Below, piece after piece: positions 36,174-39,888 of a stretch of DNA of 42,734 nucleotides. Both the position numbers and the translations under genes were made by a program. Position 1 is the first letter of the stretch. Every line of letters begins with the position of its first letter. The stretch is from Anoxybacteroides tepidamans (lineage in GTDB: Bacteria; Bacillota; Bacilli; Bacillales; Anoxybacillaceae), in NCBI RefSeq assembly GCF_014201465.1, contig NZ_JACHEP010000001.1, positions 1-42,734 of the forward strand, read 5' to 3'. Below the pieces are notes generated by a model that did not search any database, was not told where the DNA came from, and saw only the letters and a list, made by a program, of their open reading frames with translations.

Positions 36174-36235
36174 AAAAAAAGACATAAACGATTGCATTAC
36201 CAAGGGAGGCTAATTATCATTTATCGTTTATGTCT
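36174..36235 (-). terminator. Orphan terminator with anti-Shine-Dalgarno loop
   Basis: On the minus strand AGACATAAACGA pairs perfectly with TCGTTTATGTCT (36180-36191 with 36224-36235) and is followed by seven Ts. No gene ends here on the minus strand; the sequence above it holds the four-way junction at 36336-36463. The 32-nt loop contains CCTCCC, complementary to ribosome sites. It therefore looks like the 3' end of a non-coding transcript. Confidence 0.65.
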
Positions 36236-36546
36236 CATACTAATTGAGTGGTGATTAATTTTTTATTATTCTGCTACACTAGTGTTGATTATCCATTATT
36301 TTACTAAAAAACATAGAATCATATGGCTGAACACAAGCTTTTCTGCCTCTTTCCTCGAACAAGAACGTCGACGGGCCCCGCAAAGTGTTCATTGTTCGAG
36401 GAGGGCATGCTGTACGCATGCCCAGTCGGCAAGCTGAGCTTAGCCGACTACGGCAGAAAAGCTAGGAATATAGCGATATCAACTAGTTTTTAGTGGTTAA
36501 TCAGCACATCTAACTATACAAATAAACGTAATATAGTAAGTTCATA
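36236..36546. other. Gene-free region holding nested inverted repeats
   Basis: No reading frame of note. Around the four-way junction the flanks also pair: GTGTTGATTATCCA (36282-36295) and ACTAAAAAAC (36303-36312) on the left are matched by GTTTTTAGTGGTTAATCAGCAC (reading 36486-36507 as its mirror) with a short insertion on the left arm. The nested pairing thus extends over about 225 bp. The flanks are AT-rich, the core GC-rich. Confidence 0.5.
36336..36463 (-). ncRNA. Candidate structured RNA (four-way junction)
   Basis: A closing stem of 12 perfect pairs (36336-36347 with 36452-36463) encloses three hairpins in a row: 36352-36361 with 36393-36402 (10 perfect pairs, 31-nt loop), 36403-36410 with 36416-36423 (GGGCATGC/GCATGCCC, 5-nt loop), and 36424-36430 with 36443-36449 (AGTCGGC/GCCGACT, extended by AAGC/GCTT). 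Adjacent hairpins abut with no unpaired base, as needed for coaxial stacking. The strand is not certain; the terminator at 36174 favours the minus strand. No known family was recognised; a folded mobile DNA end is the alternative. Confidence 0.5.
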
Positions 36547-36590
36547 AAAAAAGCCACTGAAAAGATTGACTTTACAATCTTTTCAGTGGC
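36545..36590 (-). terminator. Terminator of glnA
   Basis: GCCACTGAAAAGATTG (36553-36568) and CAATCTTTTCAGTGGC (36575-36590) form a perfect 16-bp stem with a 6-nt loop; on the minus strand TTTTTTTAT follows. It lies 10 bases after the glnA stop. Confidence 0.95.
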
Positions 36591-36600
36591 CGTTCTCTTT

Positions 36601-39734: not shown

Positions 39735-39888
39735 TTTAAAAACTTGTTCCTTGATAACCGAATATTCTACTAGGGTGATTCACCCATTATTACCATACCG
39801 AAAAACGTAAAACAATGGAAGCCCTACCTCTCATCCATCCTTACAGCTCCGAAGCTGCGCCAGTGTGAATTCCGTTTTCCTAAGATGC
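39735..39888. other. Stretch without a gene
   Basis: Nothing convincing seen; it may hold the rest of a lost insertion sequence ending at the 43-bp repeat. Confidence 0.3.

Follow-up and report, generated by a model that had tools for sequence, protein, structure and literature searches.

What kind of genetic element occupies the densely paired stretch between the glutamine synthetase gene (GlnA, NCBIfam) and a gene of the metallo-beta-lactamase fold (PF00753), both on the minus strand, in the genome of Anoxybacteroides tepidamans? The window, the whole stretch of 42,734 nucleotides, contains at this place a 128-nt sequence that had been singled out from its letters alone as a compact four-way junction with three possible identities: a free-standing RNA, a ribozyme-like element or a folded end of a mobile element. 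The minimum-energy fold of this sequence reaches -73.7 kcal/mol (z -9.15), which none of 200 shuffled sequences equalled, and it consists, as proposed, of a perfect 12-bp closing stem, P1, enclosing three hairpins, P2 to P4 (Table 1). The original prediction that no base stays unpaired holds between the hairpins, each of which abuts the next, and fails beside P1, where 4 nt and 2 nt are left single. The 31-nt loop that it described in P2 is present, and alignment with other copies identifies it as a scar: nearly all other aligned copies carry an extra stem of about 10 bp (GGGCAAATnnnATTTGCCC) at this place, and 12 nt of this stem are deleted in the window copy. The nested inverted repeats noticed in the flanks are real and belong to a larger, 236-bp element as its arms and terminal repeats; the DNA fold of this element has a z of -9.68. 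Outside that element, a terminator-like hairpin (36552-36591) adjoins the 3' end of glnA. On the other side, between the element and the metallo-beta-lactamase-fold gene, lies a separate inverted repeat (GACATAAACGAT .. ATCGTTTATGTC, 36181-36234) that overlaps the 5' end of the longest reading of this gene.

Table 1. Coordinates of the folded core and of the element that carries it, as positions of the window
Feature	Position	Strand	Basis
Whole MITE copy, 236 bp, IS5377 type	36277..36512	+	boundaries from other full copies
Left terminal inverted repeat CACTAGTGTTGATTATCCATTA, resembles IS5377 right end	36277..36295	+	1 mismatch to consensus
Four-way-junction core, 128 nt here, about 140 nt in most copies	36336..36463	+	fold and copy alignment
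P1, 5' arm of closing stem	36336..36347	+	fold
P2, long hairpin, 12 nt missing from apical stem in this copy	36352..36402	+	fold and alignment
P3, 8-bp hairpin GGGCATGC	36403..36423	+	fold
P4, hairpin of 7 + 4 bp	36424..36449	+	fold
P1, 3' arm of closing stem	36452..36463	+	fold
Right terminal inverted repeat TGGTTAATCAGCACATCTA, resembles IS5377 left end, diverged here	36494..36512	-	boundaries of other copies

The nature of the element becomes apparent from its copies. The core occurs at least 40 times in its own genome (3.39 Mb, 54 contigs) with 78-100% identity to the query; the 51 matches listed, from 71 candidates of which 40 were scored, comprise 40 places with a near-full match, among them one that a contig end truncates at query position 97, and another 11 that are short matches to a 21-nt palindrome and were dropped. 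A comparison of flanks, which kept 54 matches starting before query position 30 and ending after 100, reveals similarity between copies extending left to CACGAGTGTTGATTATCCATTA.. and right to ..TTGGTTAATCAACACGCCTG, where it stops. Full copies end in imperfect inverted repeats of about 19 bp, and the 38 with paired ends measure 225-309 bp, mostly 245-249 bp and typically about 248 bp. Target duplications of 9 bp agree at 8 or more positions in 32 of these 38 copies and perfectly in 24 (one-base shifts allowed; the count drops a second reading of the place L041 and omits copies whose ends exceed the permitted mismatches or lie beyond the sequence retrieved), and a single one of 1406 mismatched left-right flank pairs reached 8/9. 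The duplications vary in sequence. Copies at unrelated sites with target duplications, which the original prediction had named as support for a mobile element, were thus found, and its guess was right in kind. The folded sequence forms the middle of a larger MITE with IS4/IS5377-type ends, represented in the window by an aged copy around which no duplication is recognisable (5/9). Two contigs of the assembly, C14 and C43, end inside or a few bases from a copy, so that the assembly may miss some.

Not every copy retains the core. Six of nine short copies (100-127 bp) have target duplications of at least 8/9, and most of the nine are 109-110 bp long and resemble deletions that removed the core between two GGC triplets. 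Cores without P2 also exist (L123, L124, L126, L130, L139). Core-less copies with target duplications and cores lacking P2 together indicate that the core is not needed for the presence of the element. In three copies (L134, L027, L135) the core reads, by eye, inverted relative to the arms.

Which transposon could have supplied the ends? Two relics in the own genome bear on this: L067 combines two MITE-like ends, which differ from the consensus at 4 and 2 positions, with a transposase fragment, and L069 has one such end and a DDE_Tnp_1 fragment, a 60-residue piece of which matched transposases annotated as IS4/IS5377 on Geobacillus plasmids. Two of the Geobacillus plasmid elements (L116, L117) have full-length annotated transposase genes, end in CAGGCGTGTTGATTATCC and CACGAGTGTTGATTATCC and are flanked by perfect 9-bp target duplications; the NCBIfam IS4 family transposase model gives the L116 protein 224 bits (cut-off 115). 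A third IS5377-type copy from Geobacillus (L115) has the ends and no target duplication, and an IS4 element of Planococcus has related ends and a 9-bp duplication. The closely similar ends are CAGGCGTGTTGATTATCC/CACGAGTGTTGATTATCC in the IS and CAGGCGTGTTGATTAACC/CACGAGTGTTGATTATCC in the consensus of the MITE, whose left end resembles the right end of the IS and whose right end resembles the left, with a single difference in 18 bases; duplications of 9 bp accompany both. The MITE differs from IS5377 in having no transposase gene and, in its middle, a 140-nt folded core. Since the terminal repeats and the length of the target duplication match IS5377, we assign the window element to it as a non-autonomous, IS5377-type MITE, and its short, non-coding and numerous copies with parent-like inverted ends and 9-bp duplications agree with this assignment. 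Among the 14 PF01609 matches in the own genome no intact IS5377 copy was seen, and convincing ends were confined to the broken L067 and L069; matches to the ends with 4-5 mismatches in L065 and L072 were taken as chance. As an alternative parent we rejected ISLre2/UPF0236, which is likewise accompanied by a 9-bp target duplication: the own genome holds one fragment of it, below the cut-off.

The best explanation of the element, to which we give a probability of about three in four, is an IS5377-type MITE mobilised in trans, with a palindromic core cassette that is kept at the level of DNA. We infer that an IS5377 transposase mobilises the MITE: a DDE enzyme of this type would recognise the ends of about 19 bp and move the element of about 248 bp, generating the 9-bp target duplications. 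The middle would be a cassette, conserved as such and built from four palindromic stems, which by prediction could extrude as a cruciform or fold on either single strand. Its stems might be kept by hairpin-templated copying during replication or repair, by better spread of well-folded sources, or by both, while copies, once settled, would decay, with ready loss of P2 or of the core as a whole. One may guess that the cruciform helps recruitment or escape at the replication fork.

Is the pairing itself preserved, and in which molecule? In alignment A1, containing 35 of 36 cores chosen for diversity (L018 omitted), 92.3% of cells pair and 19 of 55 pairs have changed on both sides: eight in lower P2, four in upper P2, five in P4 and one each in P1 and P3. 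Compensating changes in all four stems, anticipated in the case of a functional RNA, are therefore present, with a single pair each in P1 and P3. Covariation in A1 amounts to 0.161 against 0.099 in shuffled and 0.044-0.068 in slid alignments; for the number of further standard pair types there is no excess, 116 of 500 shuffles reaching the value of the alignment. RNAalifold predicts 28 pairs in alignment A4 (21 diverse cores), none of them in P3, and 25 of the 28 have changed in a compensatory manner; P3 and P4 are misaligned between groups in A4. The signal of double changes is small in alignment A5, which contains 87 distinct IS5377-type cores (5 of 55 pairs; covariation 0.043 versus 0.037 shuffled), and this suggests that copies within the IS5377-type family mainly decay. 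A further alignment, A3, contains cores of both strands and was left aside.

An RNA made from a fixed strand is expected to tolerate G-U above A-C mismatches. No such excess is seen in the mobile copies: A5 has G-U in 67 and A-C in 59 cells, at 32 and 31 pair positions, after removal of four pairs that were under 80% Watson-Crick, and A1 has 38 and 37 after removal of six pairs, or 52 and 65 without removal. Nor do the copies follow the orientation of genes, since 25 lie between tandem genes (12 on the same strand, 13 on the opposite), 10 between divergent and 3 between convergent genes, and 5 at an edge (the divergent place L041 is counted twice, and the copies omitted are those omitted from the count of target duplications); none of the 43 readings lies inside an ORF of 90 aa or more. 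Lack of a G-U excess and of gene orientation favours a palindrome kept at the DNA level, and with paired positions changing together this is the most likely level at which pairing is maintained. Equal numbers of G-U and A-C could also stem from transcription of either strand depending on the site.

These observations bear on the reading of the core as a functional structured RNA, regulatory or protective, that the MITE carries as a cargo useful to its hosts, with a copy beside sufC in Mesobacillus domesticated. The covariation in A1, in A4 and among the Mesobacillus cores speaks in its favour; the balance of G-U and A-C, the 12 to 13 split between strands and the existence of core-less MITEs with target duplications speak against it, and we regard it as rather improbable. 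A free-standing RNA or ribozyme finds no support for the window copy, since the mobile copies lack RNA-strand bias and gene orientation and a consensus scan revealed no promoter-like site inside the element. That no RNA family has such a layout holds for Rfam 15: neither the window core nor those of 20 further loci gave a match at gathering score, and seven divergent loci searched up to an E of 0.5 gave only matches below gathering, taken as chance. Elsewhere in the window, the sole Rfam match at gathering level is a BsrC small RNA (RF01410, 79.8 bits; 39802-39888, plus strand).

The RNA reading also draws on a genus of 21 genomes (g69), taken to be Mesobacillus. Here 16 of the 21 genomes have one core match each, and all 16 copies have a flank in common, situated on the promoter side of sufC; SufC was identified by a TIGR01978 match in L167. 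Column identity is 0.90-0.95 in the core against 0.77 and 0.71 in 25-base windows at the edges, and nearby blocks (the sufC promoter, a hairpin and the stretch 1801-1850) are equally conserved. In this alignment the paired cells amount to 97.5%, and double changes occur in 6 of 57 pairs, further standard pair types being not above shuffles (111 of 500 reach it). G-U outnumbers A-C by 34 to 4 cells, and still by 13 to 4 cells, or 10 to 3 pairs, without two mainly G-U pairs. The excess of G-U and the conservation at a fixed locus fit a function in RNA or for the host in Mesobacillus, and the sufC copy may have gained such a role. Against a general RNA function stand two species (L281, L282) that keep P1, P3 and P4 but are without all or most of P2, and two genomes (L283, L284) in which the core is missing at the sufC locus; one further genome, 66% complete, gave no match to the sufC query. 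In the sufC tree the two P2-less species fall on separate branches, while the coreless L283 forms the longest branch, grouping with L173 (support 0.70), and L284 is unplaced, so that loss and original absence of the core at sufC are not distinguishable. An extra short hairpin (CGCCATTCAGC..GCTGAATGGCG) lies tens of bases past the core in L166-L169 and L171-L182, and it too changes on both sides between species.

How far does the core extend beyond its IS5377-type carrier? A DNA query with the window core matches 24 of 61 genomes, the own genome included. The core model R1 matches 31 of 41 genomes of the family; in a sample of 397 genomes from the order it matches 20, and the model R2, built on a diverse set, matches 50 of these 397 and 18 of 135 genera, again including the own genome. 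R1 also picks up most cores on their opposite strand (14 of 18 loci tested), and the match totals of R1 and R2 are therefore not copy numbers. One search was confined to 100 hand-picked loci. Two plasmid records contain the window core and three that of L294, none those of L299 or L292; phages gave no match to the window core or L292, and the P2 motif was found in none of the viral contigs. One pattern match outside Bacillales, in Ktedonosporobacter (L265), has no four-helix fold and was taken as chance.

In addition to IS5377-type arms with 9-bp target duplications, the core is found between several other kinds of ends. Arms ending in TATAGATGCAA carry it in Geobacillus (L156, L160, L293, L294, and L300 on plasmid pHTA426), with a relative on contig C33 of the own genome (L065:1237-1485) and a looser one in genome G010; no target duplication could be established for carriers with these ends. 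The relative on C33 is a second MITE-like kind, with TATATAAATGCAA ends and a related four-way-junction core, and lies next to a disrupted DDE_Tnp_1 transposase and to a cluster of tRNA genes. Ends of the GGCTATGTTAAT type are flanked by 8-bp duplications, ATAAAGAA and TACATAAA (L309, L311; both 8/8), and ends of the GGCTGTTTTCG type by TTATTTTA (L298, 8/8), with L165 also at 8/8. Of the loci with GGCTGTTTTCG-like ends, L321 reaches 7/8, and L292, L164, L316 and L317 have no convincing duplication. Within genus g28, to which L309 and L311 belong, the search gave no convincing duplication at L308, L310 and L313 and none at L312; at L308 an 8-bp repeat was read by eye. The transposase of the GGCT-ended MITEs may be of the ISL3 kind. 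Finally, a bare type with P1 GATTTTTGGCTCATT.. occurs in other genera, and neither convincing ends nor a duplication appeared in the 11 loci run. Among GATTTTTGG-type loci outside genus g28, 8 of 11 are without a repeat and L303, L304 and L315 have marginal ones of 5 to 7 bp (L295, L296 and L299 were left out of this search). Because it is found in MITEs with different ends and bare in other genera, the core cassette is older than its present carrier.

Comparison of these distant cores reveals an uneven pattern of conservation. Across 23 GATTTTTGG-type cores from five families, Mesobacillus included, pairwise identity of the 5' arms averages 0.91 in P1, 0.83 in P3, 0.70 in P4 and 0.51 in P2, and P2 nevertheless forms 26-31 predicted pairs, nearly all Watson-Crick. 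In 20 of the GATTTTTGG-type cores the identity of P2 arms is 0.515 against 0.359 when shuffled, and the opposed bases are 529 Watson-Crick, 6 G-U, 5 A-C and 12 other, with 56 gaps. Such a combination is what one would see if the palindrome were purely mutational, its stems kept without any function by hairpin-templated correction of quasi-palindromes. The parity of G-U and A-C, here as in A5, is in keeping with this process and counts once more against an RNA. So, by eye, are two Mesobacillus cores (L176, L179) in which the 5' arm of P2 is of one type and the 3' arm resembles the other, a possible block rewriting of one arm. Mutation bias alone is hard to credit, however, with P1 and P3 arms conserved across five families of the order and with a four-helix layout that recurs between different ends, and we consider this explanation unlikely, to the same degree as a cargo RNA.

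The remaining possibilities can be treated briefly. A folded single-strand DNA end, as in an IS200/IS605-like or REP-type element, is evoked by the palindromic multi-hairpin shape and formed part of the original guess of a mobile element; that part did not stand, as the ends belong to the type of an IS4-family DDE element. IS200/IS605 elements are not known to make a target duplication, and the 9-bp duplications and paired inverted ends like those of an IS4 element leave this reading very improbable. A free-standing ribozyme or riboswitch tied to its locus, suggested by the position between glnA and the metallo-beta-lactamase-fold gene, is practically dismissed by the at least 40 core copies in the own genome, by the lack of an Rfam match and by the glnA loci taken from 30 of 41 family genomes, at which the core model finds the core in the own genome only and in none of the 29 relatives.

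The IS5377-type MITE with a DNA-level palindrome thus remains our preferred explanation of the window element, and it leads to a wider and more tentative proposal, for which we would put the odds somewhat below even. Cassettes of about 140 nt with a four-way-junction fold may form an undescribed superfamily of DNA elements in many Bacillales, owned by no single transposon, with P1 and P3, and to a lesser degree P4, conserved and P2 rewritten yet paired. If this is true, shape would be what defines the cassette as a genetic parasite or passenger, and the variable arm P2 would serve some purpose. Beside the full core of L314, the right flank holds an apparent partial second copy (the 3' half of P4 and the 3' arm of P1), which suggests tandem duplication.

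How does the element compare with repeats described before? The bcr1 and other repeats of the Bacillus cereus group (PMC6542083, PMC3446304) are likewise short, dispersed, intergenic and MITE-like, with tens of copies and some conserved folds, as far as the consulted parts of these papers go. There, bcr1 mobility is linked to a TTTAT motif (PMC6542083), whereas the window MITE has varied 9-bp target duplications and IS4-type ends, a distinction made by description. Bcr1, Bhal-1 and Bant-1 are also repeated, foldable intergenic families of Firmicutes; they are set apart, again by description, by their sizes of 167, 74 and 72 bp, and the part of PMC2267715 consulted makes no mention of Geobacillus. 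Bacterial MITEs share inverted ends, direct repeats, AT-rich intergenic sites and stable folds in the portion of PMC10969869 covered, where a figure legend gives QMITE2 direct repeats of 7-9 bp and a core of 113-145 bp. A core common to MITEs with different ends was not found in that portion, and the main text of PMC10969869 contains no word beginning with Bacillus, Geobacillus, cruciform or four-way. No prior description of the element was found in the open PubMed Central literature. As far as these searches go, the MITE is of a known kind, and what is new is a foldable core shared by MITEs whose ends differ. MITEs are usually regarded as gutted ISs with unimportant middles. Here the conserved part is the middle, a related four-helix palindrome found between different ends in genera of several families, which raises the question of whether DNA secondary structure helps a MITE to spread or the palindrome is a passenger that switches carriers. 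In either case P2, hypervariable yet almost perfectly paired, offers a natural readout of palindrome rewriting in living genomes.
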